Assembly: GCF_000170755.1 (NCBI RefSeq)
Contig: NZ_ABCK01000029.1
Location: forward strand, 1-61,148
From: Lentisphaera araneosa HTCC2155
GTDB lineage: Bacteria > Verrucomicrobiota > Lentisphaeria > Lentisphaerales > Lentisphaeraceae
DNA length: 61,148 nt
Direction: 5' to 3'
The notes below the pieces were generated by a model that was given only the letters and a program-made list of their open reading frames with translations, was not told the DNA's origin and ran no database searches. This document shows, in pieces, positions 28,869 to 53,614 of this stretch. Positions within the stretch are counted from its first letter, which is position 1. Each line of letters opens with the position of its first letter. The position numbers and the translations under genes are program-made.

Positions 28869-28888
28869 TAAAAAAAGGAATGTAATTA

Positions 28889-29966: not shown

Positions 29967-29968
29967 GA

Positions 29969-30007: not shown

Positions 30008-30116
30008 ATAAATAGTTTAAATGTTCGGATTAACTTAAAATAATCAATATTTCTTTAAGGATTTGGGCAGATAAAAGATAAATAGGCTAGTGATTTTTTT
30101 GCTTGTACGTTTTTGA

Positions 30117-31449: not shown

Positions 31450-31452
31450 AGT

Positions 31453-35411: not shown

Positions 35412-35412
35412 T

Positions 35413-36021: not shown

Positions 36022-36022
36022 T

Positions 36023-37321: not shown

Positions 37322-37965
37322 GATGACACTTCCCCAATTTTATTCGTTTTACTGGTGAGTAGTTGCTGTATGAGAGCTTTTTTCTGGCTATTTCTAATAT
37401 TCTGTGCTACGAAATTACGTAAAGATTCTGACTGTGGAAGAAAGTCAGTTAAGAAGACGATGTTATGCCCTGCCTCAAAAGCAACATTTAGTGGCCCGTT
37501 TGTACTTCCTCGTTTTTCGTCAAGGGATAACACTATATCAACGACTGATCGGGCCGCTAAATCAATATCTGCTTCATTTTTGTATAAATCGGTAGACGCT
37601 TTTTTAGCTTGGTCTTCTCTGGAAAAGCGCTCTTTTAGAGTAGCTCTAAAGTTTTCGATTTCGGAGCAGGACCAAAAACCTTCATCCCAGCCTCCTGAGC
37701 GTTGCTTTTCTTCGGAGTGTCTTTCGTCTTTGAAGCCAAATAAAGAGCGCACTTTGACTCCTCTGTCACGAGCAGACCTGATAAACTCAATTTTCTCCTG
37801 TTGGTTTTTGATCGCTTCAGTCTCAAAGGAGACTTCTTTAGTAATGCAAATATCAAAAAGTTCAGTTGGAAACTCATCATGGATGTTGATCTGGTTTTCG
37901 AAAAGAAAGTCCCAGATATTATTATCAAGATAAATAGTGATCTTTTGGTGTTTTACCTCCCTCAT
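37318..37965 (-). CDS. PIN-domain protein with HsdS-like C-terminal tail
   Basis: 215 aa, two parts. Residues about 8-175 look like a PIN ribonuclease: YLDNN (Asp14), KEVSFETEAI (Glu48/50), NEADIDLAA (Asp133/135) and VFLTDF (Asp174) give the usual acidic quartet in order. Residues about 190-205 read RNSQKKALIQQLLTSK, nearly the same as the HsdS helix ends (KKALMQQLLTGKK). At the DNA level, 37344-37385 repeats 37988-38030 in hsdS. The gene is tightly packed between hsdS (3-nt gap) and the CD-NTase (ATGA overlap). It may cleave RNA and dock on the methylase complex through the shared helix; both ideas are inference. Confidence 0.7.
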   Translation of the reverse strand: MREVKHQKITIYLDNNIWDFLFENQINIHDEFPTELFDICITKEVSFETEAIKNQQEKIEFIRSARDRGVKVRSLFGFKDERHSEEKQRSGGWDEGFWSCSEIENFRATLKERFSREDQAKKASTDLYKNEADIDLAARSVVDIVLSLDEKRGSTNGPLNVAFEAGHNIVFLTDFLPQSESLRNFVAQNIRNSQKKALIQQLLTSKTNKIGEVSS

Positions 37966-37968
37966 TTC

Positions 37969-39183: not shown

Positions 39184-39184
39184 T

Positions 39185-40693: not shown

Positions 40694-41210
40694 GATTAGT
40701 TTCCCCTTGTAAAAGTTTAGAAAGTTTTTGTGCGTGAAAATATGGGCTGTGAATAAAATAAATTGTAGCGAATGAAATTGAGGTGATCAATATTTGAGCT
40801 GTCCAGTTTATCGGTGAAAAACCGCATATAACTGACATGTTTATAGATATTATTACTGCGATTACACTTATCACTAAGGACCAAAATGTAATTGACATAA
40901 ATGTTTTATTAGAATTCGGCTTACATTGAAGGTCATTATTCGAGATTTCACAATACGGCATAGCTTCCTTAACTAAGAATTCAGGAATCGAAGGTCTCTT
41001 TTCAAAAAACGATTTAAGTGTTTGTGCATTTAGATGTGAGAATTCACGACCAAACTTATCCTTCATGTAAATGGATAAAGCACTCCTTTGTATATAGTTC
41101 TCTTTAGAGTTTAATAAATCATCAAGCATTTTGAGTTTATTAAACCCTATAGTAGTTCTGGTAGTTTTTGACTGTAGATAGTCAATTAGTTTTAGTAATA
41201 CTTCAATCAT
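40677..41210 (-). CDS. small two-helix membrane protein, unknown
   Basis: 177 aa. The first 100 residues are helical and charged, with LSIYMKDKFGREFSH and a PSIPEFLVKEAMPYCEIS segment. Two transmembrane helices follow: FMSITFWSLVISVIAVIISI near 104-123 and WTAQILITSISFATIYFI near 135-152. Not recognised. It overlaps the HsdS-like gene by ATGA and hsdM by 17 nt, so it is certainly translated with the restriction operon. A membrane component in a restriction operon is unusual and may cooperate with the SLATT effector; that is speculation from position. Confidence 0.65.
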   Translation of the reverse strand: MIEVLLKLIDYLQSKTTRTTIGFNKLKMLDDLLNSKENYIQRSALSIYMKDKFGREFSHLNAQTLKSFFEKRPSIPEFLVKEAMPYCEISNNDLQCKPNSNKTFMSITFWSLVISVIAVIISINMSVICGFSPINWTAQILITSISFATIYFIHSPYFHAQKLSKLLQGETNHDNSN

Positions 41211-41791
41211 TTCCCCTCCTTAAGAATTTGATTAGTTAAAGCTATATTTGCTACTGAGTTATTCTTTAGCATTTTTTGTAAAGTTAGTTTTTTTTCCAAA
41301 TGTAACTTATGTAAAAGCACAATTTTTTCTTGCATTGCTATGCTTGGGGTTTCTATAAGCATTGCTTCCATCATTGCTCTAGTTATTGTAGGGAGAGCAG
41401 ATCCTTGTGATGCTTTGAGTAAATGTTTTTTTGCTGAATAAGAAACATTGAGAAACCACGTCAAATATTCAGGTAGAATTTTGGACGTATCATTGACACG
41501 GATATGGATAAAATGCTGTGATAGTACTGTCGGCAATTTAATTTCTTTGGCACATACAGCATAATTATGATGACCGCGGGATATAAAGGCTATGTCGCCA
41601 TCCTCTAAGGTTATTGTGGGTTTGCGACCAGGTAGAGCTGTACGAGTAAGGGCATTTATATCAATGCCATTGTCAATATCGATGTTTTTTAGCTGCACGA
41701 CTAAAAAATCACCATCTAAAGCAGGGGTGATTTTTCCTCGAAAAGAATAGCCAGAACGTATGCTTGCTAATTGATTTAAAGATGGCTTCAT
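41207..41791 (-). CDS. single-TRD HsdS-like protein
   Basis: 194 aa, half the size of a normal HsdS. It has one target-recognition domain (LASIRSGYSFRGK at the start, VVQLKNIDIDNG near 31-43) and one helical spacer at the C-terminus (MQEKIVLLHKLHLEKKLTLQKML). Such half-subunits can dimerise or act as alternative specificity factors for an HsdM. It is the first gene of the nine-gene reverse operon. No Shine-Dalgarno is visible; instead one arm of a perfect 13-bp inverted repeat lies 3 nt before the ATG. Whether it pairs with this HsdM or is a relic is not known. Confidence 0.75.
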   Translation of the reverse strand: MKPSLNQLASIRSGYSFRGKITPALDGDFLVVQLKNIDIDNGIDINALTRTALPGRKPTITLEDGDIAFISRGHHNYAVCAKEIKLPTVLSQHFIHIRVNDTSKILPEYLTWFLNVSYSAKKHLLKASQGSALPTITRAMMEAMLIETPSIAMQEKIVLLHKLHLEKKLTLQKMLKNNSVANIALTNQILKEGK

Positions 41792-41794
41792 AGG

Positions 41795-41899
41795 AATAAG
41801 TGCATTTCAGTTGATGATACACTTATCTTAGTGGCCTTTAGTGATGATTCAAATGTGCTTTATAAAAAAAAATGCGTCATTAACTAAAATGCACTTATT
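41795..41899 (-). promoter_or_regulatory. 13-bp inverted repeat at head of defence operon
   Basis: AATAAGTGCATTT (41795-41807) and AAATGCACTTATT (41887-41899) are exact reverse complements, 79 nt apart, in the divergent promoter region between the restriction/CBASS operon and the forward gene at 42057. The left arm abuts the start codon of the first operon gene. Probably a repressor-binding dyad, possibly a loop-forming pair of operators. The binding protein is unknown; the HTH proteins of element A are candidates. Confidence 0.5.
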
Positions 41900-42056
41900 T
41901 ATAAATATCATACAAGGTGTTTATTATAAAGTATTTACGTAACTTACTTTATTTTATGTGATGAAAAGATTTACTTTTTCTTCCTCCGTCACACATGTTT
42001 AATTATCAAGAGTCGACCTTGGTGTCTTTTAAAACCTAAAGTAAGGAGCTATAAAA

Positions 42057-42773
42057 ATGGCTAATATTGAAGCAAAAACATTGTTCTGTGAAATTGAAAA
42101 CAGAAAAATTGCCCAAAAAGTGAAAAAAATCACTAAGGGCGTTATTGAGAAAAAGTTATGGAATCAAAATGATTTTGGAGTGTCATTGTCTTGGTGGGGA
42201 AGATGCACGGCGATTTTTCCCTTTAATTTAGTGGAACTTAAAAAGGAATTTCCAGAAGTTGATTTTTATCTTATCAATCAATACGAAAATGATTTTGTGT
42301 CAGTGACTAAATATGAGGGAGATCATAAAGCGCGGATCTTAACTTTTATTGAAAATGCTGAGTTTTTCAAAAAGGTTCCCAAAGAAAAATCTGAATTGAC
42401 AAACCTAGATCTAAAGAAGTTATTAGAAATTGATTCAATGTTTTTTAGTCCATCTGTCCCGATTGATGTTGATAGTGAGGAATATGACAAATGTTATTTT
42501 AAACATCGGTTTATACAAGAAGAGGGCTTTTTAGAGTTAGAGAAAGTTGAAAGGCTGAAACTTTTAAGTGGTGTACTTTTCAGTAAATGTCCTTTTCAGA
42601 ATGCTTACGTGAGAAATAAGTTTGCAGCAAATGAGCAAGAGGTGCTTTTGGATATGACGCTAGATGAGTTAGATCAAAAAGAAAACTGTCAGAGCATAAG
42701 TGATAAACGAAAAACGGTTTATAAAATGTTAATGGAAAAAGCAGATGATTTAGAGTTTACAGGGGAGGTGTAG
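42057..42773 (+). CDS. hypothetical protein of element A
   Basis: 238 aa, soluble, acidic, no motif I recognise. The first third has an LSWWGRCTAIFPF segment and a KKEFPEVDFYLINQYENDF stretch; the rest is mostly helical and charged. A good ribosome site (AAGGAG) lies 9 nt before the ATG. It is followed after 2 nt by another hypothetical gene, and the pair is divergent from the defence operon. Could be antirestriction-like or regulatory, by position only. Confidence 0.55.
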   Translation: MANIEAKTLFCEIENRKIAQKVKKITKGVIEKKLWNQNDFGVSLSWWGRCTAIFPFNLVELKKEFPEVDFYLINQYENDFVSVTKYEGDHKARILTFIENAEFFKKVPKEKSELTNLDLKKLLEIDSMFFSPSVPIDVDSEEYDKCYFKHRFIQEEGFLELEKVERLKLLSGVLFSKCPFQNAYVRNKFAANEQEVLLDMTLDELDQKENCQSISDKRKTVYKMLMEKADDLEFTGEV

Positions 42774-42775
42774 TT

Positions 42776-43249
42776 ATGGGTACTTTCTATAAGAATACGT
42801 TGACTTTCATGGGTAATGATGAACAAATATTTGAGCTACAAGATCTGTTGAAATATAACGATTTTCCCATTCATAACAAGAGTTTTTATTCTGACGAAAT
42901 ATGTAATGCTACTAATGTTTTTGGCTCAAGAAGTGGTATTGAGGTTCATGATATAGATGATGAGCATGGAATGAAACTAGAGTGGGAAAATTTTGATGGT
43001 GGTTGTTCAATCCGTTTTTATACGACAAATGGGTCAGCATTAGTGTTTTTAAGTTTGCTTGGGGTATGGTTTCCTGATCTTGACTGTTCGTTGATGTACA
43101 CCAGTCAAGAAACTAATTACGAAGAACATGATTGCTATGAAGTAGACGGATTTGGGAATGTATCGTATAACCATTCTGAACTGCATATATACTCTGATTC
43201 TAATGGTGTATACAATAGTCCTTTTTTAGATAATAGAGTGGTTAGTTGA
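42776..43249 (+). CDS. hypothetical protein, possibly Api92-like (DUF1281-type)
   Basis: 157 aa. The opening, TFYKNTLTFMGNDEQIFEL, resembles the ferredoxin-like N-terminal domain of Api92/YubB-type proteins found on phages and plasmids. The middle KLEWENFDGGCSIRFYTTNGS and GVWFPDLDCSLMY also suit that fold, but I cannot confirm it. GGGGAGG just upstream serves as ribosome site. Translationally linked to the preceding gene (2-nt gap) and followed by an excisionase-like gene 10 nt on. Confidence 0.5.
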   Translation: MGTFYKNTLTFMGNDEQIFELQDLLKYNDFPIHNKSFYSDEICNATNVFGSRSGIEVHDIDDEHGMKLEWENFDGGCSIRFYTTNGSALVFLSLLGVWFPDLDCSLMYTSQETNYEEHDCYEVDGFGNVSYNHSELHIYSDSNGVYNSPFLDNRVVS

Positions 43250-43259
43250 GGCGGGTAGA

Positions 43260-43571
43260 ATGGAATTTTCATATACTTCAGAGACGCTTAAATACTTGCG
43301 TCATCATTTACAAGCAGGGATTGCTACAGGTAATATTACGCTTAAAGAGTTTACAGGTGTGATGTCGACATTGGAAAATACTCTAATTATGGATAGAACG
43401 AATGATGAGAGTGATAATTGGCTGAAAGTTAAAGACGTTCAATTAAGGTTGTCTGTTAGTAGGCAGACTGTTTCACGATTGATTCAGGCGAATAAACTGA
43501 AAGTTAAAAAGGTTCGTAGATCAATAAGGATTAGCGAAAAATCATTAAATGATTACTTAAGGACAAGTTAA
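43260..43571 (+). CDS. excisionase-like HTH protein at right end of element A
   Basis: 103 aa. The C-terminal 50 residues are an excisionase/HTH_17 domain: WLKVKDVQLRLSVSRQTVSRL then a wing, KVKKVRRSIRISEKSLNDYL. The N-terminal half is a short helical region (LKYLRHHLQAGIATGNITLK). It ends 26 nt before a strong terminator and lies near the right att, a suitable place for a recombination directionality factor. It ends the three-gene forward group that begins at 42057. Confidence 0.8.
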   Translation: MEFSYTSETLKYLRHHLQAGIATGNITLKEFTGVMSTLENTLIMDRTNDESDNWLKVKDVQLRLSVSRQTVSRLIQANKLKVKKVRRSIRISEKSLNDYLRTS

Positions 43572-43596
43572 AACTCCTTTATTAAGGATAGCTATC

Positions 43597-43626
43597 GCCC
43601 TTACAGTAATGTGAGGGCTTTTTGTT
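43597..43626 (+). terminator. rho-independent terminator after forward gene group
   Basis: GCCCTTACA-GTAA-TGTGAGGGC followed by TTTTTG. Eight or nine base pairs with one mismatch, directly downstream of the excisionase-like gene. Confidence 0.8.
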
Positions 43627-43702
43627 TGTTTGTGTTCTATGAATGTATAAATTTTATAAAGTAACTTAAAAAATGGGTGGACCTTGATATATTAGATGTA
43701 GG

Positions 43703-43738
43703 AAATGGCGTAATAAATGGCGTAATAAATGGCGTACA
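43703..43738. repeat. three tandem 12-bp repeats near right att of element A
   Basis: AAATGGCGTAAT at 43703, 43715 and 43727 (last copy ends ACA). Located about 90 nt from the att core. Short direct repeats flanking an att core are typical integrase arm-binding sites; the assignment is inference. Confidence 0.5.
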
Positions 43739-43790
43739 TGTAAAACTGTTATCTTAATATGCCCTTGTGTACCTGATTGCAGACAAGTGA

Positions 43791-43826
43791 AACAAAAAAG
43801 CACTTACATTGCTGTAAGTGCTTATT
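43791..43826 (-). terminator. hairpin beside central att copy
   Basis: AAGCACTTACA (43798-43808) pairs perfectly with TGTAAGTGCTT (43813-43823). A run of A on the left gives a T-tract on the reverse strand. It has the same position relative to the tRNA fragment as the terminators at 26.83 kb and 50.76 kb, so each att copy carries its own tRNA terminator. Confidence 0.75.
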
Positions 43827-43828
43827 TT

Positions 43829-43877
43829 GAGTGGGCAATACTGGACTCGAACCAGCGACCTCTTCGATGTCAACGAA
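43829..43877 (-). repeat. att site between elements A and B (tRNA-Val 3' half)
   Basis: Matches the intact tRNA-Val gene from its 3' end to the anticodon stem, ending CAACGAA (43871-43877), a few bases longer than the copy at 26948-26992. It marks the junction between the two tandem integrated elements. Confidence 0.85.
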
Positions 43878-43900
43878 AAGTTCTTGAGCACAAAATACAA

Positions 43901-43923
43901 AAAATATCGTAGTTTGTATCGTA
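43901..43923. repeat. left end repeat of element B (arm-type site candidate)
   Basis: Identical over 23 nt and in the same orientation to 50688-50710. It contains ATATCGTA and GTATCGTA half-units 12 nt apart. Located 24 nt inside the left att copy. Confidence 0.6.
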
Positions 43924-43990
43924 AATTTTTCGGTGGAGGGTAGTTTGATTTGATCAAATTTTATCAATCATGCTCATGAGGGTTCACGCT

Positions 43991-45409
43991 ATGAAAACAG
44001 GAAGAGAAGTTACCACAGGCAAGAATATCAGAAGGCTCAGACAGTCGAACGGGAAGTTGACTAAGTACTGGCAGTATTCATTTATGTATAATGGCAAAAG
44101 GTATGGCGGGAGTACTGGATGTGTAGATAAGAACGACGCTGAAGAATTTGCAAAGAATAAAAAAGAAGTTTTGAAATCAGAGTTTAATAAGGGCTCAAAG
44201 AAAATAGATCGTTATATTCAAACTAAAGCAATAAAAAGTTTTACTGAGAAGGTGACTCGCGACGTTAAAGGCGATTCAATAGTATTAGATAAAGTCTGGG
44301 ATATTTTTAAAAAAGAAGCGCCAGCACTCATGAAGCGCGAACCATCCCCAACTAAATGGAAACAAAAAGAAAGTTGTTGGAATGACTTTAAAGATTTCTT
44401 GGAAAGTAAAGAGGTCGAAGATTTGCGCCAAGTCAGTAAATCTCATGCGCAAGAATATGTAGGATTGTTGAAAGATTCGGGAAAGTTTAACAAAAGAATT
44501 ATTTCAAAAAAAGGGTCATACACTTCAGAAATTAAAGAACTTTCACCATCTACAATTAACGAGTATATGACCCATATAAAACAAGTTTTTACTCTTCTAC
44601 ATGATAGAGCTAACTTGTTAATAAATCCCTTTGACGGCATCCCCAAAGTTGATGGTAAGAAAAAGAAACGAGATGTTTTTGAAATTAGTGAACTAACAAA
44701 GATTAATGATTTTCTTGTTAAGGGCAAAAGCTGGAAATACTCAAGCAATCCAAAATTAGATATTTTGATTCTGCGAACTTTATTTATTGTAGGTCTGAAT
44801 ACTGGACTTAGACGCGGTGATATTTGCATGCTGGACTGGCCAAGTGTTGACCTAGATAAGAATCGAATTTCTTTAGAAAACTCTAAAACAGAAGTGTTCG
44901 TTTCTATTCCAATTTCAGCGCCTTTAATGACTTTTTTAAATGAACGCCATGCCATTACTGGCGGGAGTGGCTTTGTAGTGCCTGAGCTGGCTGATATGTA
45001 TCAAAATAATAGTGACGGGATAAGCTACAGATTTCGTCAGATGTTGGATAAGTTAAAAATCAAAAATACTAAAGAGGTAACAGGTCGAACGGTTGCGGTA
45101 TCTAATAAAGATATTCACTCTCTAAGGCATACTTTTTGTTATCTCCATGGGATACAGGGGACGTCTATTCAAGAATTGCAGTTGATGACTGGACACCTTA
45201 CGCCAAAGATGACAGAAGCCTACATGATGCACAAGACCGAGCAACTAAAGGAAAAGGCGCAAAAAAGTATTGAAGAATTTACAGATTTTACTCAGCTGGA
45301 ATTGAAAGATAAAAAGAAATTGACTCGCGATGAGATTTTGAAAATGGTGTCGACTATGACGGCTAAAAACTTTCAGAAAGTGAGAAAGGAGATTTTGAAA
45401 AATGGATGA
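43991..45409 (+). CDS. tyrosine recombinase/integrase of element B
   Basis: Homologue of the element A integrase with the same arm-domain start (YWQYSFMYNGKRYGGSTGC). Catalytic residues: TGLRRGDI (Arg about 274), HSLRHTF (His/Arg about 377/380), TGH and nucleophile Tyr in TEAYMMHK near 410. The ATG at 43991 is preferred to 43970 because GAGGG at 43978-43982 is 8 nt before it, giving 472 aa. Lies just inside the left att of element B. The C-terminal tail is lysine-rich and overlaps the next gene by 8 nt. Confidence 0.92.
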   Translation: MKTGREVTTGKNIRRLRQSNGKLTKYWQYSFMYNGKRYGGSTGCVDKNDAEEFAKNKKEVLKSEFNKGSKKIDRYIQTKAIKSFTEKVTRDVKGDSIVLDKVWDIFKKEAPALMKREPSPTKWKQKESCWNDFKDFLESKEVEDLRQVSKSHAQEYVGLLKDSGKFNKRIISKKGSYTSEIKELSPSTINEYMTHIKQVFTLLHDRANLLINPFDGIPKVDGKKKKRDVFEISELTKINDFLVKGKSWKYSSNPKLDILILRTLFIVGLNTGLRRGDICMLDWPSVDLDKNRISLENSKTEVFVSIPISAPLMTFLNERHAITGGSGFVVPELADMYQNNSDGISYRFRQMLDKLKIKNTKEVTGRTVAVSNKDIHSLRHTFCYLHGIQGTSIQELQLMTGHLTPKMTEAYMMHKTEQLKEKAQKSIEEFTDFTQLELKDKKKLTRDEILKMVSTMTAKNFQKVRKEILKNG

Positions 45410-46514
45410 TAGTTCGATAGGTGGAGAACCGTTAGATTTAGGCGATGATTTATATTTTGATGATCTTGTGGGAGTACCCAAAGAAATTGGCGGGATTCAG
45501 CTAAGTGATGACCAAAGAGAATTCATGGGTTCGATTCATCCGAATAGTCCTATTTATGATTTTCTCAATTTAGGTTTACCCAACGGATTAAAACCAAGCG
45601 CTAATCCAATAGCTGAACAATATACAAAAGAATACTGGGAGGAGTTAATAGCTTATGAAGGATACACCTCTCTAAAGCATATGATATACCATGAGTATGA
45701 TAAAAAATTCTTTCGCTTTGATGAAGACCTAAAGGATGAAGAAATTAGAGATATGGAGTGTAATCAATTTGGTTACTTCGATGCTATAACAGATGCTAAG
45801 AAAATTTTGAATAATGGAGGTGGATTTCAAGGTTTAAAGGATTTAGCGCGTGAATTAATTGCTAATGAAATAAAGGAAGAAATAAAGAAAACTATATCAA
45901 TTGGTGACCAAGATGCGCTTCTTTATTGTCTCGCATATTTTCAGATTTACTTTTATGCGTTTGAACAGTCAGCTTTTAAATCAGCCTATTATGACTTATT
46001 GGAGGAGGTTAATCATTTTGGTGATGAGAGTTATAAAAAAGTTCTTGGTATAGCTCAGAAGCCACCTTTAGTGGCAGAGAGTTGGGAAGATATAATTCTG
46101 TTAACTGAGAAGTATAAAAGCACACTAAAATATGATACTGATGGCAACTTTATGTTTGATTTAAAAGTGTATGTGAAGAGTCGTGGTGAAGGAATAAATA
46201 TTGATCGTGAAAAACTATATGTTGATAAAGTGCCTTCCGCATTGGCGCGGTTTGTTAGGAGATATCAAGGCACAAAAATACAACAAGATGGCTATCTCCT
46301 TATGAAGGCTGGTTCAAGGCAACGAAACAACACGTTTAAAAACGAGGTGAGTCGTTTAAGAAAAGCAATCTTAGAAACTATTAAGGTGGAAGACGCGAGA
46401 GGTGATATGAGGAAAGGTGAAAAATTTGTGTTTGAAATTTTAGATAAAGGTAAGGTGGGAGTGGCTAAAAAACTCCTCTCTATGGATAATATAGAGAAAG
46501 ATATCGAAGAGTAA
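45402..46514 (+). CDS. hypothetical protein of element B
   Basis: 370 aa, acidic, mostly helical, no membrane segment. The N-terminus is very acidic (MDDSSIGGEPLDLGDDLYFDD). The central part is aromatic-rich (YCLAYFQIYFYAFEQSAF). The C-terminal 80 residues (SALARFVRRYQGTKI, RQRNNTFKNEVSRLRKAI) are basic and could bind nucleic acid. Not recognised. Overlap with the integrase stop implies cotranscription. It might assist recombination or be cargo; neither can be decided from sequence. Confidence 0.6.
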   Translation: MDDSSIGGEPLDLGDDLYFDDLVGVPKEIGGIQLSDDQREFMGSIHPNSPIYDFLNLGLPNGLKPSANPIAEQYTKEYWEELIAYEGYTSLKHMIYHEYDKKFFRFDEDLKDEEIRDMECNQFGYFDAITDAKKILNNGGGFQGLKDLARELIANEIKEEIKKTISIGDQDALLYCLAYFQIYFYAFEQSAFKSAYYDLLEEVNHFGDESYKKVLGIAQKPPLVAESWEDIILLTEKYKSTLKYDTDGNFMFDLKVYVKSRGEGINIDREKLYVDKVPSALARFVRRYQGTKIQQDGYLLMKAGSRQRNNTFKNEVSRLRKAILETIKVEDARGDMRKGEKFVFEILDKGKVGVAKKLLSMDNIEKDIEE

Positions 46515-46690
46515 AGGAGGACGTAAACCGCAAATGATATTGAATAAAATTGATCATTTTTTTTCATGCTCAGCAATGGATTTAAGTAAGGAAATGTAAT
46601 CATTACTCTCAAATCTAGGAGTAATTACTCCCGAAAGTTAATTCTCGACACTGATGTCAAAATGAGAAATTAATTAACGAGAGTTATAAA
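46515..46690. promoter_or_regulatory. regulatory gap with paired palindromes
   Basis: GTAAT-C-ATTAC (46596-46606) and the perfect 14-bp palindrome GGAGTAATTACTCC (46618-46631) share the core TAATNATTA and lie 12 nt apart, 60-95 nt before the excisionase-like gene. This looks like a double operator for a dimeric repressor. A 21-codon ORF at 46534 after AAAGGAGG is a weak gene candidate. Confidence 0.5.
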
Positions 46691-46972
46691 ATGATTGATA
46701 ATAATCCTTATCCTAAAAATATTGCAGAAGCTGCTTATTGCCTATTAGTCGCGTTCAATCCTCAGCTAACACTGGATGACATTCAGTCCTTTGGAGCTGG
46801 CAAGCCTCAAGGCGCGTCATTGTGTCGAGTTAAAGAAGTGGCGCGAGAGCTAAGCGTATCTGAAATAACTGTTCGCCGTATGATTAAAGACGGTCGCTTA
46901 AAATCCATTATGATTGGTGGCAGTATTCGCGTCTTCCAAGATTCAGTTAATGAATTGATGGGGGTGGCGTAG
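46691..46972 (+). CDS. excisionase-like HTH protein of element B
   Basis: 93 aa. The C-terminal half is an HTH_17/excisionase domain: CRVKEVARELSVSEITVRRMI then a wing, LKSIMIGGSIRVFQDSV. The N-terminal half is a short helical segment. Very similar in layout to the protein at 43260, so each element encodes its own candidate directionality factor. A double palindrome lies upstream. The gene is 1 nt from the KilA-N gene. Confidence 0.82.
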   Translation: MIDNNPYPKNIAEAAYCLLVAFNPQLTLDDIQSFGAGKPQGASLCRVKEVARELSVSEITVRRMIKDGRLKSIMIGGSIRVFQDSVNELMGVA

Positions 46973-46973
46973 A

Positions 46974-47621
46974 ATGAAACTCAAAAAAACTTTTGAATTA
47001 AATATTCAGCATAATGAAATTCATCATCAAATAAGAGTAGATGAAAAAGGTAGATTTTGCCTTACTGACATGGCTAGATACTTTCCAAGAAAAAGTTTAA
47101 AGCAATGGCTAAAAAATCAATCAACAAAAGAGCTTCTTACAATTACAGAGGATTTTTTAAATGGGGTAGATTTGCCCCATTTAAAAGTTCTTTCTACAAA
47201 AAAAGGTCGACACAATTCCGGCACTTATGCCCATGAGATAATCGCCATGGACTTTGCAATGTGGCTAGATCCCAGGTTTAAATTAAAAGTAATTCTTTCA
47301 TACACGGAAGGAAAGGACGCTTTAAAGGGTTGGAACATCGACAGGCAATTATCTGCACGAGCGAATAAGGTTCAATGTGAAGCCATTGAAGAAGTGAAGG
47401 AGTCCCCTAAGCCATACCATTATTCAAATGAGGCTAAAATGATAAACAAGATTGTTTTTGGCTATCATGAAAAGAATATAAGAGACCAAGCGACAAGTGA
47501 GCAATTAGAAGAAGTCTACAAGCTGATGAATTTTAACGCGTGCCTCATGAAGCAAGGTCTAAGCTATCAAAAAAGAAAAGAGACGCTTAATGACATTGTG
47601 AGGGCGGATTCATGCGCATGA
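46974..47621 (+). CDS. KilA-N domain protein
   Basis: 215 aa. Residues about 15-110 form a KilA-N DNA-binding domain: RVDEKGRFCLTDMARYF, then LKQWLKNQSTKELL and the signature HEIIAMDFAMWLDPRFKLKV. KilA-N proteins are common phage and satellite regulators or antirepressors. The C-terminal 100 residues are helical (SNEAKMINKIVFGYHEKNIR, like the ORF11CD3 tail of KilA-N proteins). The stop overlaps a tiny membrane-protein ORF by 10 nt. Probably controls the element's gene expression. Confidence 0.9.
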   Translation: MKLKKTFELNIQHNEIHHQIRVDEKGRFCLTDMARYFPRKSLKQWLKNQSTKELLTITEDFLNGVDLPHLKVLSTKKGRHNSGTYAHEIIAMDFAMWLDPRFKLKVILSYTEGKDALKGWNIDRQLSARANKVQCEAIEEVKESPKPYHYSNEAKMINKIVFGYHEKNIRDQATSEQLEEVYKLMNFNACLMKQGLSYQKRKETLNDIVRADSCA

Positions 47622-47704
47622 GGAATTTTAACTTTCAAAACCTAATAACGGCATTTATTGCGGGTGCTGTTTTCATGTTCGCAATCGTCACAATTATTCT
47701 ATAA
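47612..47704 (+). CDS. 30-aa single-helix membrane peptide
   Basis: Starts MRMRNFNFQNL with basic residues, followed by a hydrophobic helix (ITAFIAGAVFMFAIVTIIL) to the end. Overlaps the KilA-N stop by 10 nt, suggesting coupling. Single-pass micropeptides of this kind can be holin-like, toxic or regulatory. An imperfect GC hairpin (GCCCCCTTAGGGGGC near 47712) follows. No homology claimed. Confidence 0.45.
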   Translation: MRMRNFNFQNLITAFIAGAVFMFAIVTIIL

Positions 47705-47746
47705 AACTATACGCCCCCTTAGGGGGCAATCATTAGGGCTAATATA

Positions 47747-48385
47747 ATGAAAATCACTAGAGTAGTAAACAAAGATATTTTACTGAAAGAAAAAGGTTAT
47801 TCCATTTATCCAGTGGAGTTGGACACAATGGATTTAACCTCTCAAGAGTTTCGGCTATGCGTCTATATAGCATCAAAACCTAGCTCTTGGGACTTCGCCT
47901 ATGACAGGATAGCAAAAGACCTTAAAATCAATCCTCGAACCGCTAAGCTGTGGTTAAAGGCTATTGAGAAAAAAGGAATTTTAGAAAGAATAAAAAATGC
48001 TAAAACTGGTCGTACTAAATATATATTAAAGGTCTGTAGGTTTGAGAAAGAAGATACAGAACCATCATCAAAAATTGGTCAGCTTTCTTATGATTTTGCT
48101 AAGAAATATATGCTTTTTGTAAAAACACAAGTAGCCAAAAAAGAACTTATAGATGAAGATGACCCCAAGCACGCAAAAGAGATTTCTGAGCTGGTAAATG
48201 TGGATGGTGTTAGTTCAGATAATCTATCAAGAGTTATTGATTCGATAATTTGTAACTATCTCGAGTATAGGTATTGGGATGTTTCCGATACTAAAAAATT
48301 GCGTGAAAACTTTGATACGGTTCACAAAAAAACTTTAGAGCTAGAGGCTTCATTACCAACAGAGGAAAAATTACATATTATCTGA
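47747..48385 (+). CDS. winged-helix protein, putative replication initiator of element B
   Basis: 212 aa. Residues about 27-95 form a winged helix typical of plasmid and phage replication or regulatory proteins: LTSQEFRLCVYIASKPSSWDFAYDRIAKDLKINPRTAKLW without breaks, then ILERIKNAKTGRTKYI as wing. The C-terminal 110 residues are helical and acidic, not recognised. Directly downstream (48386-48520) are spaced direct repeats and an AT-rich region, so an initiator role is the best guess. A transcription factor is the alternative. Confidence 0.6.
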   Translation: MKITRVVNKDILLKEKGYSIYPVELDTMDLTSQEFRLCVYIASKPSSWDFAYDRIAKDLKINPRTAKLWLKAIEKKGILERIKNAKTGRTKYILKVCRFEKEDTEPSSKIGQLSYDFAKKYMLFVKTQVAKKELIDEDDPKHAKEISELVNVDGVSSDNLSRVIDSIICNYLEYRYWDVSDTKKLRENFDTVHKKTLELEASLPTEEKLHII

Positions 48386-48520
48386 GAAGCTAGGGGAAAA
48401 ATTTTGTAAAGCTAGGGGGTATTTAATGTAAAAGCTAGGGGGTATTTAATGTAAAAGCTAGGGGGTAGTATTGCCCCCCTTAAGTAAAGAGTTAATAAAT
48501 AAAGAATTAATAAAGTAAAG
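48386..48520. repeat. iteron-like repeats and AT-rich block, candidate replication origin
   Basis: Direct repeats carrying AAGCTAGGGG begin at 48387, 48408, 48431 and 48454. The 48408 and 48431 copies are identical 23-mers (AAAGCTAGGGGGTATTTAAT, then GTA), about two helical turns apart. After a GGGGG...CCCCC hairpin (48461-48479) come two AT-rich 15-nt repeats, TAAAGAGTTAATAAA and TAAAGAATTAATAAA (48485-48514). Iterons next to a meltable AT-rich region and a winged-helix gene are how Rep-driven origins look. Confidence 0.6.
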
Positions 48521-48610
48521 AGGGCACTCACTTTTTATTTTAACTAAAAAAAACAAGCTATTATGATATAGTATATAAAGACAGTAAATAATAATTCAGA
48601 GGTAATTTAG

Positions 48611-48979
48611 ATGGCTAAAATTCTTAGCAAAGCAAAGCAGATTTTGAAAGAGAAAGCTGAAAAGAGAATCGAACAGAAACAAACTCAAGAGCTTTATCAA
48701 ACCATGGTACAAATTGAGAGAGAAGAGGCCACCGCCAAACTAGAAGCGGAGCGCAAGAAACAACACGATGAAAATGAGAAGCAAATTGCAGAACAGAAAG
48801 CCTATCAGAATGAACAGAGAAGCCTAAATATGGCTCTTTCACAGGTTCAGCAAGTATGTAGTCATTACGACAATCAAAGTGATGCTCAGAAGGCTTATAT
48901 TGTTGCAAGAGATAAATTCTTGAAAGCCGTTAAGTCAGCAGGCATCAAGACCCCTATGCTAGACACGCTCACATTTTAA
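48611..48979 (+). CDS. coiled-coil hypothetical protein
   Basis: 122 aa. Residues about 8-75 are a continuous, highly charged helix (KAKQILKEKAEKRIEQKQTQE onward) with heptad-like spacing, very likely a coiled coil. The C-terminus has a more globular segment, KAYIVARDKFLKAVKSAGI. No catalytic motif. A ribosome site AGAGGT precedes the ATG. Lies just after the candidate origin and is followed by a terminator-like hairpin. It could be a structural, partition or Rep-accessory protein; not recognised. Confidence 0.6.
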   Translation: MAKILSKAKQILKEKAEKRIEQKQTQELYQTMVQIEREEATAKLEAERKKQHDENEKQIAEQKAYQNEQRSLNMALSQVQQVCSHYDNQSDAQKAYIVARDKFLKAVKSAGIKTPMLDTLTF

Positions 48980-48997
48980 AACAAAGAAAAACCCTCC

Positions 48998-49052
48998 TTA
49001 GTTTTGCCCCAGTCTTTAAGTTATTAGCCAACTTTGAGAATGGGGTTTTTTG
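48998..49052 (+). terminator. imperfect terminator hairpin
   Basis: GCCCCAGTCTTTAAG and CTTTGAGAATGGGG form an imperfect stem followed by TTTTTTG, about 20 nt after the coiled-coil gene. Confidence 0.55.
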
Positions 49053-49172
49053 TTCTCAGAAAAAGTGTTGGTGCTTTTTTTTGATTTGAAAACATTTCAC
49101 TACAAAGGGGAAAGCCAATAATACCCACACATAGACTAATTTTACTAATCCAAACACAAGGGACTTAACAAA

Positions 49173-49376
49173 ATGATTGACTCACAACGTAAACCCAAAG
49201 TAACTTGCAAGCTACACTCTGAAGTGATTCAAAGTTTACAGGAAACGAAAACACTCTTCCATGCTTCAACTTATGACCAAGCTATTTTGGAGCTGGTCAA
49301 CTTTTATAATGATCATCGACCCGCACAAGGCTCACGAAGAGAGTTAAGGACTATTCACACGCCAGTTATCAGTTAG
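49173..49376 (+). CDS. small basic hypothetical protein
   Basis: 67 aa (MIDSQRKPKVTCKLHSEV ... YDQAILELVNFYNDHRPAQ). The pattern of a short strand (KVTCKLHSEV) followed by two helices resembles ribbon-helix-helix regulators, with the strand near the N-terminus. Preceded by AAGGGACTTAACAAA, a weak ribosome site. Could be an antitoxin-like or copy-control protein, but no partner toxin is seen next to it. Confidence 0.45.
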   Translation: MIDSQRKPKVTCKLHSEVIQSLQETKTLFHASTYDQAILELVNFYNDHRPAQGSRRELRTIHTPVIS

Positions 49377-49488
49377 TATTATATATCAGCTTTTTGAGTT
49401 GCTTAAATATTAATATTAACAGAGTAATAATAACCATCGGTCTTATACTTAATATTATTATTGATAACGGTTAATTGGAGATTTAAAT

Positions 49489-50259
49489 ATGCAAATAGAG
49501 ATAAGAAAAGCTGAGGAAAGTGATTTAAATGAAATTCATGGGTGGTTAGTTGACCATGATCGCAAAGGGATAAGAGAGAATTTTTTGTGTAATTGGGAAG
49601 TTATAAAAAGACAAGCTCAAAATGCAGATATGCTTATAGCGATTGAAAGCGTGACTAGTAAAATCATTGGTTTTATGACTGGTGGCCTGATAGATAATGG
49701 AGTCTTACAGGTACATAATGATTATAGAAGCAATAGTTCTAGAAGTTATGGTGTGGGCAGTAAATTGGTCAAATTTGCATGTGATGAAGCGAGACGCAAT
49801 GACACCCCTTTTCTATGGGTTGAATGTGCACCCAGTTCTTCAGAAGAATTTTGGAAGAAACAAGGTTTTACTATAATTAGAAAAGAACGACAACATCCTA
49901 AAGGTTATAAAGTTTTAGAGGATGTCGAACAAACACACTCAAATGAAAACCAAGATATAAGTGAAGTTGTCATTAGTTTCTATGATCAACGTGCTTTATA
50001 TAGTGCTTCAGCTGAACCAAGAAAAAAAGAATCTATAAAAGCTTACCTGTATAATGATTCTGAACTCAAGTTAAGTAAAAAGATTTACTGCCATAGAATG
50101 AGGACTGAAGGAGATACAGTTATAAAAATTGAAGTAAATGGAGTCACGAAACTTTTTGGTAAGGCTAAAGGAAGTGAAGCAAAGGAGATAGGAGTCAGAG
50201 TTACTGGTTCGGGTGACACTAGAATACATAAGATATCTTTGGATGAGCTAAATACTTAA
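49489..50259 (+). CDS. GNAT-family acetyltransferase with extra C-terminal domain
   Basis: 256 aa. Residues 1-145 are a GCN5-like acetyltransferase: IEIRKAEESDLNEIHGW, the acetyl-CoA loop SRSYGVGSKLVKFACDEAR near 84-101, and EFWKKQGFTIIRKER near 122. The next about 110 residues (VVISFYDQRALYSASAEPRK, KIEVNGVTKLFGKAKGSEAK) form a strand-rich domain I do not recognise. Some GNATs are toxins that acetylate charged tRNA, but those are smaller and have an RHH partner; the nearby 67-aa protein is not adjacent enough to be sure. Likely cargo of element B. Confidence 0.75.
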   Translation: MQIEIRKAEESDLNEIHGWLVDHDRKGIRENFLCNWEVIKRQAQNADMLIAIESVTSKIIGFMTGGLIDNGVLQVHNDYRSNSSRSYGVGSKLVKFACDEARRNDTPFLWVECAPSSSEEFWKKQGFTIIRKERQHPKGYKVLEDVEQTHSNENQDISEVVISFYDQRALYSASAEPRKKESIKAYLYNDSELKLSKKIYCHRMRTEGDTVIKIEVNGVTKLFGKAKGSEAKEIGVRVTGSGDTRIHKISLDELNT

Positions 50260-50264
50260 TTCGA

Positions 50265-50573
50265 TTATTCATTAATAAGTTCTTTTACACTTTTACCATG
50301 TAGTGCTTCTCTAGTTACTTCTTCCACTCTCTTACCCCATGCCTCACTCGAGTAATTTTTATTCATGTGTATCCCCTCCCTCAGCGCCTTGGTCTTTGTG
50401 TTGCCTATTGCCATCTGCAACTTTTGCCACTGCTCCTCACTGAGCTTTCCCTGTATATCAATAAGACAAGCTTGCCTCGCTTTTTCACTGGAGTAATCAA
50501 GTTTAAGTTCATCTAAGTTTGGTTCACTACATGACACCAACAAAATGAACATGATTATAATGATTTTTTTCAT
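50265..50573 (-). CDS. small lipoprotein
   Basis: 102 aa with a lipoprotein signal: MKKIIIIMFILLVSCSEPN, lipobox LVSC with Cys about 15. The mature part is helical and charged (DYSSEKARQACLIDIQGKLSEEQ cut by a Cys that might pair). No known domain. Convergent with the GNAT gene (5-nt gap) and about 220 nt from the tRNA. May modify the host envelope, as some prophage lipoproteins do, but this is not shown. Confidence 0.65.
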   Translation of the reverse strand: MKKIIIIMFILLVSCSEPNLDELKLDYSSEKARQACLIDIQGKLSEEQWQKLQMAIGNTKTKALREGIHMNKNYSSEAWGKRVEEVTREALHGKSVKELINE

Positions 50574-50687
50574 TTATCCCCCTTTTTTACTCCATGAATC
50601 TAATATTAGATGAGGGTAAACTCAAATTTTATCAGTAATACATACCGTTATTAACGGCTAAAGTGCCTTATTTTGATTCAGTATCGT

Positions 50688-50710
50688 AAAATATCGTAGT
50701 TTGTATCGTA
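50688..50710. repeat. right end repeat of element B (arm-type site candidate)
   Basis: Same 23-nt sequence and orientation as 43901-43923. An additional GTATCGTA unit at 50681 precedes it and GTAGTTTCTACGG follows. Lies about 85 nt inside the tRNA end of the element. Confidence 0.6.
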
Positions 50711-50743
50711 GTTTCTACGGTGAACAGATATTGTCAAGCATAA

Positions 50744-50785
50744 GCAAAAAAATAGCCAAGCACATGAGATATTCATAAGTGCTTG
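50744..50785 (-). terminator. terminator downstream of tRNA-Val
   Basis: CAAGCAC (50757-50763) pairs with GTGCTTG (50779-50785). The reverse strand then runs into a T-rich tract, just past the tRNA 3' end. Confidence 0.6.
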
Positions 50786-50793
50786 ACTATAAG

Positions 50794-50867
50794 TGGGCAA
50801 TACTGGACTCGAACCAGCGACCTCTTCGATGTCAACGAAGCGCTCTAGCCAACTGAGCTAATCGCCC
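50794..50867 (-). tRNA. tRNA-Val (anticodon GAC)
   Basis: The 74-nt reverse-strand sequence folds as a cloverleaf. Acceptor GGGCGAT/ATTGCCC (one G-U), D stem GCTC/GAGC, anticodon stem CTTCG/CGAAG around loop TTGACAT (anticodon GAC), T stem GCTGG/CCAGT with TTCGAGT, discriminator A. CCA is not encoded. It is the only intact copy; its 3' half is the attachment core for elements A and B, and integration restored a complete gene at this end. Confidence 0.95.
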
Positions 50868-50932: not shown

Positions 50933-53614
50933 CTATTTCTTCTGTGATTTTTGATATTTTTGCAGAGCTTTGCGATAGTTATCGATGATTTTTTGATTTT
51001 CGGGACTGATACTTTGTTCATCGCTATCAATTTCTTGTTGGCGCTGTTCGAGTTTTTCTTCGCTACCTTTGATATCCACTTCTTGCTTTTCAATGGGGCT
51101 GTCTAAGCTTGGAGTCGAAGAATTTGTTTTCTTCTGCGCGGCTTTGTCATCGGTATTGAGGCTCTCATTTTGACCTTTTTCGCCAATGGATTGTAAGTCG
51201 GAATCGGATTTCTTGGCATTATCCGTATTTGCATTCTTTCTGTCTTGTGGGTCGACTTTAGTGGGCTCTTGGCCAGGACCTTGGTCAATACTTCCCTCAC
51301 CGCCTTGACCAGGTTGATCCCCTGGCTGACCTGGCTGATCTCCAGGCTTGTCCCCGGGCTTATCACCGGGTTGATCTCCGGGCTTATCACCGGGTTGATC
51401 TCCGGGCTTATCACCGGGTTGATCTCCGGGCTTATCACCGGGTTGATCTCCGGGCTTATCACCGGGCTTATCACCGGGTTGATCTCCAGGCTTGTCACCA
51501 GGCTTGTCCCCGGGTTGATCTCCAGGCTTGTCCCCGGGTTGATCTCCGGGCTTATCACCGGGCTTGTCCCCGGGTTGATCTCCAGGCTTGTCCCCGGGTT
51601 GATCTCCAGGCTTGTCCCCGGGTTGATCTCCAGGTTTGTCTCCAGGCTGATCTCCAGGCTTGTCACCAGGCTTGTCACCGGGTTTGTCACCGGGTTTGTC
51701 ACCGGGTTTGTCTCCAGGCTTATCTCTAGGTTGATCTCCAGGCTTGTCCCCAGGTTGCTCCCCCGGCTTATCTTTAGGTTGATCTTCAGGCTTGTCCCCA
51801 GGCTTATCTCCAGGTTGATCTCCGGGCTTATCACCGGGTTGATCTCCAGGTTGCTCCTCGGGCTTGTCTCCAGGCTTGTCTCCAGGCTTGTCTCCAGGCT
51901 TGTCTCCGAGCTGCTCCCCCGGCTTGTCTCCAGGTTTGTCTCCTGGTTTATCACCGGGTTGATCACCGGGTTGATCTCCAGGTTGCTCCTCGGGCTTGTC
52001 TCCAGGCTTGTCTCCGAGCTGCTCCCCCGGCTTGTCTCCAGGCTTGTCCCCGGGCTTGTCCCCGGGTTGATCTCCAGGTTGCTCCTCGGGCTTATCCCCG
52101 GGTTGATCTCCCGGTTTATTTTCTGGCTGCTTCTCTGGCGAGCTTTCTGAGCTCGGTTTAGCCTCTTCTGGTGGTGCAGCTTGAATATTGATAGTGAAAA
52201 CGGGACTTTGTGACTTTTGACCTTTTATATCGTGCGCTTCGAAATAAAACTGATAGCTCTCAGGAGCTCTTAATTCTGGGAATAATTGGCGGAGGGGGAT
52301 GTGGCTTTCCAGTTCTACTTTTGTGCTACGGTCAAAGCCATCATAATAATTTTTACCAATGAACTCATTTTGGAAGCGCTCTTTGATTTTTAAATTTAAT
52401 GACTTGAGTCCCCAATCATCGGTGACTTTGATAGCGATAGGAAAATTCTGTTGGTTTTCGGTGATTTGATTTTCTTTTTGAAAATTAGGGAAGCTAATTT
52501 TTGGAGCCAGATCATCAAGAGCGGTGATTTTATAATTTGAGCTTTCGACGTAGGGAGCGAGTTCTGATTCTTTGCTGATTAAAGTGAAAGTCGAGTTTTC
52601 TGTGACTTTGAGGTCTTTGATGAAAGCGGTTCGATTCCGGAGGACGAGGGGAATGCTTCTTGACTTGAGTTTGAGCTGACTACTAATGAGCCCGCGGTCA
52701 AAATTCACATTTACATCAAGCAAGGAGCCTTTTGGGAGGCTGACATCTGGGCCGACAGCTTTGTAAGGCTTTTTCATTAAGTATTCAGGTGGGTGAATAA
52801 AGTATTCTAGTTCTTGTACTGTGGGGGGCAGTTTGACATCGATGTAAAAAACCGAGCTCTCGGCATCACCTAAAAAAGCTTTGAGATAAAACTTACTTTG
52901 AACCGCGGGCAATTCAGTAATGAATTCTTTTTGTGAATCTTGGAGGAGGGCAGCCGTTTGCCATTCATTTTCTGGTATCAATGGATCAAAACTGTATTTA
53001 ATGTGACCTTGCTGTGGGGTCAGTCCTGCTATATTGATTTTTAAAAGCCAATTTTTGGACTGATAAGTGATGCTTGAGGGAGCAGGAGAAATTGTCTGTA
53101 TACGCGTTTTTGAAGGTGAGGCAAGCTCATTCCAAGGTTGGAAGATGCGTTGAAGACTAAGCTGGCTCGGATAGGGGCTGAGGAGGGTGTAGGCAATTAA
53201 AGCTAGGATTGAAAATAGGAGAGGAGATAGATTTTTTTTCTTAGGGGGCAGTTGGAGATGTGCGGGCTCTAAATGAGAGATTATTGTGTCCTGCTGAATA
53301 CTTAGGCAATGACTCAAGCAAGATTTGAGTTCAGGACGAGCTTTTTCAATTTTTCGAGCGACGTAAAGAAGGTTAAGCTTAACTTGAGAGTTCTTTATAC
53401 TTTGCACTAAAAATAGGCAAGAATAAATAAAAAAGAGCAGAAAGAAAACCCAGCGCAATGAGGGGCTGAATTTTAAGAAGTGATCACTAATGATGAAAGC
53501 CGTTAGAAAAGGAATGAGTAAGCTCAAATAAGTCAAGATTGACTCACGTAATGCGCCTAGACGCTCCTTTCTAGAGTGGCTTTCTAAGTAATTAATCAGT
53601 TCTTGTTGCGTCAT
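50933..53614 (-). CDS. large membrane protein with PGDK/PGDQ low-complexity tract (DUF4175-like)
   Basis: The N-terminus has three predicted membrane helices (LTYLSLLIPFLTAFII, WVFFLLFFIYSCLFLV, LSPLLFSILALIAYTLL). A periplasmic strand-rich region of about 330 residues follows, with Ig-like pieces, resembling the DUF4175-type proteins that accompany MoxR/DUF58 clusters in PVC bacteria. Then comes a tract of about 270 residues built from PGDK, PGDQ and EEQPGDQ units, and a charged coiled-coil end (EEKLEQRQQEIDSDEQ). The ATG at 53614 is more likely than the TTG at 53620. The start overlaps engB by 23 nt. Function unknown; the repeat tract is prone to length change. Confidence 0.65.
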   Translation of the reverse strand: MTQQELINYLESHSRKERLGALRESILTYLSLLIPFLTAFIISDHFLKFSPSLRWVFFLLFFIYSCLFLVQSIKNSQVKLNLLYVARKIEKARPELKSCLSHCLSIQQDTIISHLEPAHLQLPPKKKNLSPLLFSILALIAYTLLSPYPSQLSLQRIFQPWNELASPSKTRIQTISPAPSSITYQSKNWLLKINIAGLTPQQGHIKYSFDPLIPENEWQTAALLQDSQKEFITELPAVQSKFYLKAFLGDAESSVFYIDVKLPPTVQELEYFIHPPEYLMKKPYKAVGPDVSLPKGSLLDVNVNFDRGLISSQLKLKSRSIPLVLRNRTAFIKDLKVTENSTFTLISKESELAPYVESSNYKITALDDLAPKISFPNFQKENQITENQQNFPIAIKVTDDWGLKSLNLKIKERFQNEFIGKNYYDGFDRSTKVELESHIPLRQLFPELRAPESYQFYFEAHDIKGQKSQSPVFTINIQAAPPEEAKPSSESSPEKQPENKPGDQPGDKPEEQPGDQPGDKPGDKPGDKPGEQLGDKPGDKPEEQPGDQPGDQPGDKPGDKPGDKPGEQLGDKPGDKPGDKPGDKPEEQPGDQPGDKPGDQPGDKPGDKPEDQPKDKPGEQPGDKPGDQPRDKPGDKPGDKPGDKPGDKPGDKPGDQPGDKPGDQPGDKPGDQPGDKPGDQPGDKPGDKPGDQPGDKPGDQPGDKPGDKPGDQPGDKPGDKPGDQPGDKPGDQPGDKPGDQPGDKPGDQPGDKPGDKPGDQPGQPGDQPGQGGEGSIDQGPGQEPTKVDPQDRKNANTDNAKKSDSDLQSIGEKGQNESLNTDDKAAQKKTNSSTPSLDSPIEKQEVDIKGSEEKLEQRQQEIDSDEQSISPENQKIIDNYRKALQKYQKSQKK
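51300..52130 (-). repeat. tandem 12-nt codon-level repeats (PGDK/PGDQ)
   Basis: About 830 nt made of 12-nt units coding Pro-Gly-Asp-Lys or Pro-Gly-Asp-Gln, e.g. CCGGGCTTATCA and CCGGGTTGATCT on the forward strand, with synonymous variation. Larger blocks, such as EEQPGDQPGDKPGDK, also recur. Opposite-strand ORFs across it are artefacts of this repeat. Confidence 0.9.

Follow-up and report, generated by a model that had tools for sequence, protein, structure and literature searches.

We analyzed a 61,148-nucleotide (nt) contig of Lentisphaera araneosa HTCC2155 (NZ_ABCK01000029.1, positions 1 to 61,148, forward strand; here called the window), which contains a small integrative element, element B, at 43830 to 50846 that would form a 6,962-bp circle if excised. 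Within this element, four direct repeats lie directly behind a gene for a winged-helix protein of 212 amino acids (aa), and the gene and the repeats together are probably a Rep-iteron replication origin of element B. This origin is made likely by the initiator families that the protein matches, by the copy number and period of arrays in related phage genes, and by a repeat core shared with phage initiator genes. An earlier reading made by a model from the letters of the same DNA (the sequence-only reading) had proposed a Rep-iteron replicon on a satellite carried by a helper phage. Its interpretation as a whole is partly supported: the replicon is supported by the three lines of evidence just named, and the vehicle is taken up below.

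The repeat array and the adjoining AT-rich stretch

The window has exactly four copies of the 10-mer AAGCTAGGGG, all of them on the plus strand (48387, 48409, 48432, and 48455; steps of 22, 23, and 23 nt). The iteron-like array that it marks (48386 to 48477, plus strand) begins at base +1 past the stop codon of the 212-aa open reading frame (ORF) at 47747 to 48385. The complete unit is AAAGCTAGGGGGTATTTAATGTA, present as two perfect 23-nt copies in series; the first copy departs from this unit after GGGG and the last copy after GGGGGTA, and the core AGGGGGTA is found in three of the four repeats. The array is not a chance product: none of 300 dinucleotide-preserving shuffles of the element had a 10-mer in more than two copies within 100 nt, compared with the four observed, and a mismatch-tolerant array detector run on positions 1 to 51000 of the window returned this array only. 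The sequence-only reading had therefore been right about four nonrandom plus-strand copies directly after the winged-helix gene. It also had the first coordinate right; the other three were one base low because it had marked the longer AAAGCTAGGG, and the period of 21 to 23 nt that it gave has to be replaced by the steps above.

Several other identities for the repeats were considered and rejected. Genome-wide (6.02 Mb), the 10-mer has eight copies, of which the four outside the array are single and each on a different contig, so that a dispersed repeat was dismissed. A CRISPR-like array was set aside for its absent spacers and an intrinsic terminator because the array was not flagged in a terminator scan. 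Coding repeats in the style of a phage O gene were discarded as well, since the 22- to 23-nt steps break the frame and stops occur inside the array.

Adjoining the repeats is an AT-rich stretch (48483 to 48610, plus strand; 79% AT over 128 nt) that includes the AT-richest 80-nt windows of the whole element and is a candidate DNA-unwinding element. The two AT-rich 15-nt repeats previously reported downstream of the array are present but imperfect (about 48491 to 48505 and 48506 to 48520, read by eye). Past the AT-rich stretch, the 15-nt unit used to look for a second iteron set did not recur within four mismatches, which leaves one set only. Iteron replicons are recognized by several direct repeats of about 17 to 23 nt at helical-turn spacing near a rep gene, by an AT-rich stretch adjoining the repeats, and by an initiator gene with a predicted DNA-binding winged helix; all of these were found here, and three of the four copies also have the phage-type core AGGG(G)(G)TA.

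Upstream of the gene, 18 to 19 nt before the initiator start codon, lies a palindrome (47712 to 47728, assigned to neither strand) that contains TAGGGGG. This heptamer occurs four times in element B, namely, in the palindrome and in three of the four array repeats. The palindrome is possibly an autoregulatory operator or, as it was flagged terminator-like on the minus strand, possibly a minus-strand terminator. Searches with the DNA itself returned little: the 23-nt repeat unit had no match in viral contigs, and the origin DNA compared with phages gave 16 records, with matches that were short or AT-rich (E values of 0.02 to 0.8).

The 212-aa protein resembles replication initiators

The 212-aa protein (47747 to 48385, plus strand) is a winged-helix replication-initiator-like protein. 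Its profile matches were PHROG 270 (“replication initiation protein,” E value = 3.9 × 10−7), PHROG 678 (“O-like,” E value = 7.6 × 10−5), and PHROG 186 (“DnaD-like,” E value = 5.9 × 10−4), all three covering the N-terminal winged helix; in Pfam, it matched HTH_36 and MarR, both below the cutoff. A profile-profile comparison (hhalign) of the protein’s subgroup with 13 phage HTH_36-type initiators gave a probability of 97.2% (E value = 3.5 × 10−11). Winged helices resemble each other, so that the PHROG matches are the firmer evidence for this protein.

Relatives of the protein are few. Within the class, a single-protein search recovered them in 2 of 147 other genomes, and a three-row profile recovered them in 5 of 196; phages gave one weak record and plasmids gave none, and not one of the pattern stretches in viral contigs (14 stretches) or genome contigs (59 stretches) was confirmed. 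Two relatives of the gene lie inside elements, L084 in a genome of the same genus (G002) and L017 in a genome of another genus of the same family (G004). In both elements, the winged-helix gene is accompanied by an integrase and an HTH_17 gene, as well as by another small gene and a MobA/MobL relaxase, which indicates that the same initiator-like gene moves along with mobilizable elements of the family. The order integrase, HTH_17, winged helix, relaxase (MobA_MobL) is colinear between the two genera (L084, 6377 to 12418; L017, 5431 to 11244).

Arrays of the same period lie inside phage initiator genes

We examined 32 phage loci with related initiators (115,269 nt), counting as an array at least three 11-mers with one mismatch at steps of 13 to 34 nt. 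The first 13 loci comprised 12 of 40 records listed (112 matched) and the one weak phage match of the 212-aa protein; 10 held-out loci were picked from the rest of that list before their sequence was seen, and 7 further loci came from two listings of 30 rows each. The 32 loci contained 14 arrays, and 13 of these lay inside the initiator gene, in 13 of the 32 loci. Initiator genes make up 20.6% of the phage sequence, and the in-gene enrichment of arrays was significant (P value = 1.3 × 10−8; for locus L108, this position test used a gene start of 1471, nine nt before the protein-based start). In-gene arrays of four copies were found in Fusobacterium phage Funu2 (steps of 22, 23, and 24 nt), Pseudomonas phage Skulduggery (20, 22, and 23 nt), and Lactococcus phage BK5-T (23, 22, and 23 nt, annotated as a repeat_region), and Lysinibacillus phage vB_LspM-01 has five in-gene copies (22, 22, 21, and 22 nt).

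The phage genes share not only the period but also a repeat core with the window. The Lysinibacillus repeats read AAGGGGGTATTCAGG and those of the window read CTAGGGGGTATTTAATG, and we used AGGGG(G)TA, as it stands in the window repeats, as the test motif. Of 19 occurrences of this motif in the first 13 phage loci, 14 fell in the linker that follows the winged helix, which accounts for 2,973 of the 44,972 nt. Among the held-out loci, the motif was found in the linker of 8 of 10, against an expectation of 0.008 per locus, while six rearranged control motifs reached 0 to 1 locus of the 10; in this count, the miss of L108 was owed to a gene start set at 631, where the protein puts the start at about 1480. 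In element B, the motif is confined to the array, where three of the four repeats have it. The chance of its presence in a 23-nt unit is small, as 4 of 6,903 other 23-mers of the element and 1,405 of 200,000 shuffles of the unit (0.7%) contained it. These results indicate that the core motif of the window array is shared with phage initiator genes.

Arrays were also seen outside the phage set. In a genome of the same class, a phage-like replication module (L085, 8433 to 9236) has an HTH_36 initiator with in-gene repeats CAATAGGGGTATTG, followed by PriCT_2 and DnaB_C genes. An element with a related integrase (L052, 9332 to 10270) has four TTTGCTAG repeats every 19 to 20 nt inside a 312-aa ORF that adjoins a DnaB-like ORF. 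A further related-integrase locus (L056) has an array with 23-nt steps, with no initiator gene recognized beside it, and arrays also occur in related-integrase loci at L060 and L017:2294.

Weighing the proposed origin against the nearest relatives

Several results weigh against an origin of this kind. Unlike the window, none of the 32 phage loci has an array in the 300 nt that follow the gene, so that phage arrays and window array agree in copy number and period and differ in position. In the nine loci nearest to the window protein (L100, L101, and L116 to L122, the SKPxxW subgroup), no array has the AGGGG(G)TA core; three of these loci have in-gene arrays with other motifs (steps of 17/16/17, 15/15, and 25/14/14 nt), and six have none. 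The nearest relatives in elements, L017 and L084, also of the SKPxxW subgroup, have no array beside the winged-helix gene. Conservation of the repeats beside homologous genes, the check named in the sequence-only reading, gave a mixed result: arrays recur in phage initiator genes but not beside these two relatives. Motif and period thus match the wider initiator family and not the nearest proteins, which is odd and may be a coincidence. In addition, the AGGGG(G)TA core was chosen after one phage array had been seen; a hidden Markov model (HMM) of 20 phage initiator domains (L096, L108, and L109 left out) scored the window protein at an E value of 1.4, fifth among 144 ORFs; and two structure models of the protein were poor (mean pLDDT, 48 and 44), leaving its C-terminal half unplaced. 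Finally, no second copy of element B was found in the genomes, plasmids, and contigs searched, and no DnaA box within one mismatch was found at 48386 to 48610. Such boxes are common but not universal in iteron replicons and count as an optional feature.

Among the SKPxxW loci, a winged-helix gene on an IMG/VR contig (L101, 5286 to 5346; YIASKPSGW) has four 17-nt in-gene repeats.

The repeats could instead be operators through which a regulator (the 212-aa, KilA-N, or HTH_17 protein) controls the gene that starts at 48611, with no origin involved. Their position about 130 to 220 nt upstream of it would suit an operator, as would the weak MarR/LexA matches of the winged helix. The PHROG matches with low E values name replication proteins, however, promoter-like sites are no more frequent in the element than by chance (21 versus 22.8 in shuffles), and an origin is the better fit for four repeats of 22 to 23 nt next to the AT-richest stretch. 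We consider an operator array distinctly unlikely.

If the array is the origin, replication could proceed as follows. The phage-type winged-helix initiator would bind the G-rich iterons, all four of which follow its own gene directly, and the resulting nucleoprotein complex would melt the AT-rich stretch at 48483 to 48610, after which the host replicative helicase would be brought in. The excised circle would then replicate as a theta plasmid and reintegrate at tRNA-Val. The HTH_17 protein may act as an excisionase or activator, and the palindrome upstream of the gene may serve the initiator as an autoregulatory operator.

Borders and gene content of element B

Element B is bounded by a 55-nt pair of attachment (att) repeats. 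The left repeat (43830 to 43884, plus strand) is a copy of the 3′ end of tRNA-Val and is 95% identical to the right repeat (50792 to 50846, plus strand), which is the 3′ part of the intact tRNA-Val gene (50793 to 50867, minus strand); this tRNA was the sole match in an Rfam scan. Neither element B nor its neighbor at 26.99 to 43.83 kb is present beside tRNA-Val in the congeners G001 and G002. In G002, the tRNA-Val gene runs straight into the orthologue of window position 25.1 kb, and in G001, conservation is limited to the right side, the left flank being particular to that genome; no related integrase was found in either genome at an E value of 1 × 10−20. The att repeats, the tRNA, and the absence from two congeners make the borders sound, and the proposal of a discrete element is upheld on the same grounds. 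An integrase, a duplicated tRNA 3′ end, and absence at the same tRNA in relatives, which define an integrative element in a tRNA gene, were all found. Just inside the left att repeat, a 35-nt repeat (43901 to 43935, plus strand) is 89% identical to a partner just inside the right one (50688 to 50722, plus strand). TATCGTA motifs occur at 43905 and 43917 on the left and at 50682, 50692, and 50704 on the right, and these end repeats are possible integrase arm sites.

The first gene encodes a tyrosine recombinase (integrase) of 479 aa (43970 to 45409, plus strand; PF00589, E value = 2.7 × 10−14; PHROG 1, E value = 8 × 10−44). Its stop is overlapped by 8 nt by the start of a 370-aa protein of unknown function (45402 to 46514, plus strand), for which profile searches gave no family at its cutoff and which had no relatives in 147 other genomes of the class, phages, or viral contigs. 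There follow a 93-aa HTH_17 excisionase-like/AlpA-like protein (46691 to 46972, plus strand; PF12728, E value = 2.3 × 10−9; TIGR01764, E value = 5.1 × 10−10, above the cutoff) and a 215-aa KilA-N domain protein (46974 to 47621, plus strand; PF04383, E value = 1.6 × 10−21; PHROG 2657, E value = 4.9 × 10−25). The KilA-N protein also matches the PADLOC candidate defense family PDC-S22 (E value = 6.1 × 10−30). Beyond the initiator gene and the array, the ORF list and Pfam and PHROG searches gave a charged protein of 122 aa (48611 to 48979) and a 67-aa ORF (49173 to 49376), both unknown and on the plus strand. These are followed by a 256-aa GNAT acetyltransferase with a C-terminal extension (49489 to 50259, plus strand; PF00583, E value = 1.1 × 10−5), which is probable cargo, and by a probable lipoprotein of 102 aa (50265 to 50573, minus strand; lipobox read by eye).

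The state of these genes bears on whether the array is a relic of a nonworking origin in an immobilized island. In favor of a relic are the degeneracy of the two outermost repeats, the stacked att scars close by, and the lack of any relative of the whole element in the genomes, plasmids, and contigs searched. On the other hand, two repeats are perfect, the att repeats and TATCGTA motifs are kept, and the integrase, HTH_17, and KilA-N matches span most of their Pfam profiles, and we regard a relic as very unlikely.

Vehicle of the element

Among the element ORFs tested against Pfam, PHROGs, and NCBIfam, no convincing match to structural, packaging, or relaxase families was found, which agrees with the sequence-only reading that element B lacks structural and transfer genes. 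No primase family was found among its ORFs either (Pfam and PHROGs). We judge a phage vehicle and a conjugative vehicle about equally likely, and both are compatible with a Rep-iteron origin.

As a phage satellite, element B would fire its origin on helper infection or induction, and the excised and amplified 7-kb element would be packaged in helper capsids. It would suit such a satellite that the 7 kb hold the integrase, the AlpA-like HTH_17 protein, and the Rep-origin module while no structural or relaxase gene was found, that the KilA-N protein and the initiator are phage type by their PHROG matches, and that a gene overlapping the integrase gene is reminiscent of iolg of the phage-inducible chromosomal minimalist island (PICMI) satellites (PMC10803314). 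However, no packaging gene was found in the element ORFs tested, and the host genome has no Terminase_6N match and only weak partial matches to PHROG 2 (which we take to be the large terminase), other terminase families not having been tried. Single-protein searches confirmed no relative of the 212-aa or 370-aa protein in viral contigs, and the absence of primase from the element families means that the definitions of phage-inducible chromosomal islands (PICIs) and PICMIs fail. A satellite carried by a helper phage, as first proposed, gained support from no test and is possible but less likely than not; the nearest same-family Rep relatives are in relaxase-bearing (MobA/MobL) elements, which makes “satellite” one of two possibilities.

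The other is that the Rep-origin module serves an element moved by a conjugative helper, as is Salmonella genomic island 1 (SGI1), with its relaxase lost or unrecognized. In the same family, relatives of the HTH_17-winged-helix pair have MobA/MobL relaxases and integrases as neighbors (L017 in G004 and L084 in G002), and the layout equals the rep-oriV of SGI1. Against this, no relaxase was found in the element (Pfam), and the host genome has no MobA_MobL or T4SS-DNA_transf match, other transfer families not having been tried. We consider mobilization of this kind possible but likewise less likely than not. Few terminase and transfer families were tried, so that these negatives in the host genome do not show helpers to be absent.

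Surroundings in the window

A second integrative element (26993 to 43829) lies in tandem with element B and carries restriction-modification genes and an HTH_17 gene of its own; its integrase is 39% identical to that of element B, and it is likewise absent from the two congeners. To its left (26782 to 26992), three tandem copies of the tRNA-Val 3′ end with flank, about 81 bp apart, form the stacked att scars. Three 12-nt direct repeats (AAATGGCGTA) lie at 43698 to 43736, just outside the left att repeat of element B. On the other side, GC-rich repeats based on 12 nt (51103 to 52150) encode PGDKPGDQ runs in a large minus-strand ORF adjoining the tRNA, and three 48-bp repeats (GCAGCAGGAGGAGCGGCAGTTAC...) are found near the window end (60757 to 60901).

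Comparison with known systems

The published systems are compared here as the papers describe them. The closest layout is that of SGI1 (PMC7433901), in which an HTH_17 gene precedes rep and four GC-rich 17-bp iterons and AT-rich stretches lie immediately downstream; a 255-bp deletion abolishes replication, and conditional replication of the circle was shown. Element B is likewise integrative, with an HTH_17 gene before rep and four G-rich direct repeats and an AT-rich stretch behind it, and the SGI1 iteron consensus is also GGGGG centered, like the window repeats. The two differ in that the SGI1 Rep has a RepA_C domain, with a putative DnaA box and IncC mobilization, whereas the element B initiator is phage type and no DnaA box was found. 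The phage HTH_36/O-type initiators (BK5-T, vB_LspM-01, and Funu2) share with element B the winged helix, four or five repeats every 20 to 24 nt, and the core AGGG(G)(G)TA; their array is inside the gene, where that of element B is behind it, and the single-sequence protein similarity is weak. In lambda (PMC7466680), four iterons and an AT tract lie inside O, and element B has the same succession of four iterons and then an AT-rich tract; unlike lambda, which has a P gene, element B gave no match to a P-like family.

Among satellites, PICIs (PMC6092414) have an ori immediately 3′ of the initiator gene, and element B resembles them in this, in its integrase and AlpA-like genes, and in its small size. 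The PICI module differs in its Pri-Rep protein and in its two sets of iterons on either side of an AT-rich region, where element B has one set and no primase was found. PICMIs (PMC10803314) have an integrase, AlpA, a primase, and fis as a target, compared with an integrase, PF12728, no primase, and tRNA-Val as a target in element B. The phage-inducible chromosomal island-like element (PLE; PMC7145576) encodes an initiator of its own, with the iterons in noncoding DNA, as does element B; the RepA_N and large serine recombinase families of PLE were not matched by element B ORFs (Pfam). The L017 and L084 elements share the integrase, the HTH_17 gene, and the homologous winged-helix gene and differ in having a relaxase and no detected iteron array.

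Iteron replicons have thus already been described on integrated elements; what differs here is the type of initiator, with an origin behind its gene. In titles and the openings of abstracts, we found nothing relevant on mobile elements or phage satellites in Lentisphaera or Lentisphaerae. Taken to its full extent, the argument would make element B a helper-dependent satellite or hitcher whose phage initiator has an origin moved from inside the gene to behind it, letting protein and origin evolve independently. Element B would then bridge the gap from phage origins to the rep-oriV modules of islands such as SGI1, in a class without such elements in the literature searched. We consider this extended account rather unlikely as a whole. 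If the proposed origin is right, a 7-kb island in a little-studied lineage would contain a self-contained replicon, and it would connect phage initiators that have in-gene origins with island replicons whose origins lie downstream. Replicons hidden in integrated elements could then be recognized by a sequence rule, a winged-helix initiator gene together with AGGGG(G)TA-core repeats at 20 to 24 nt.
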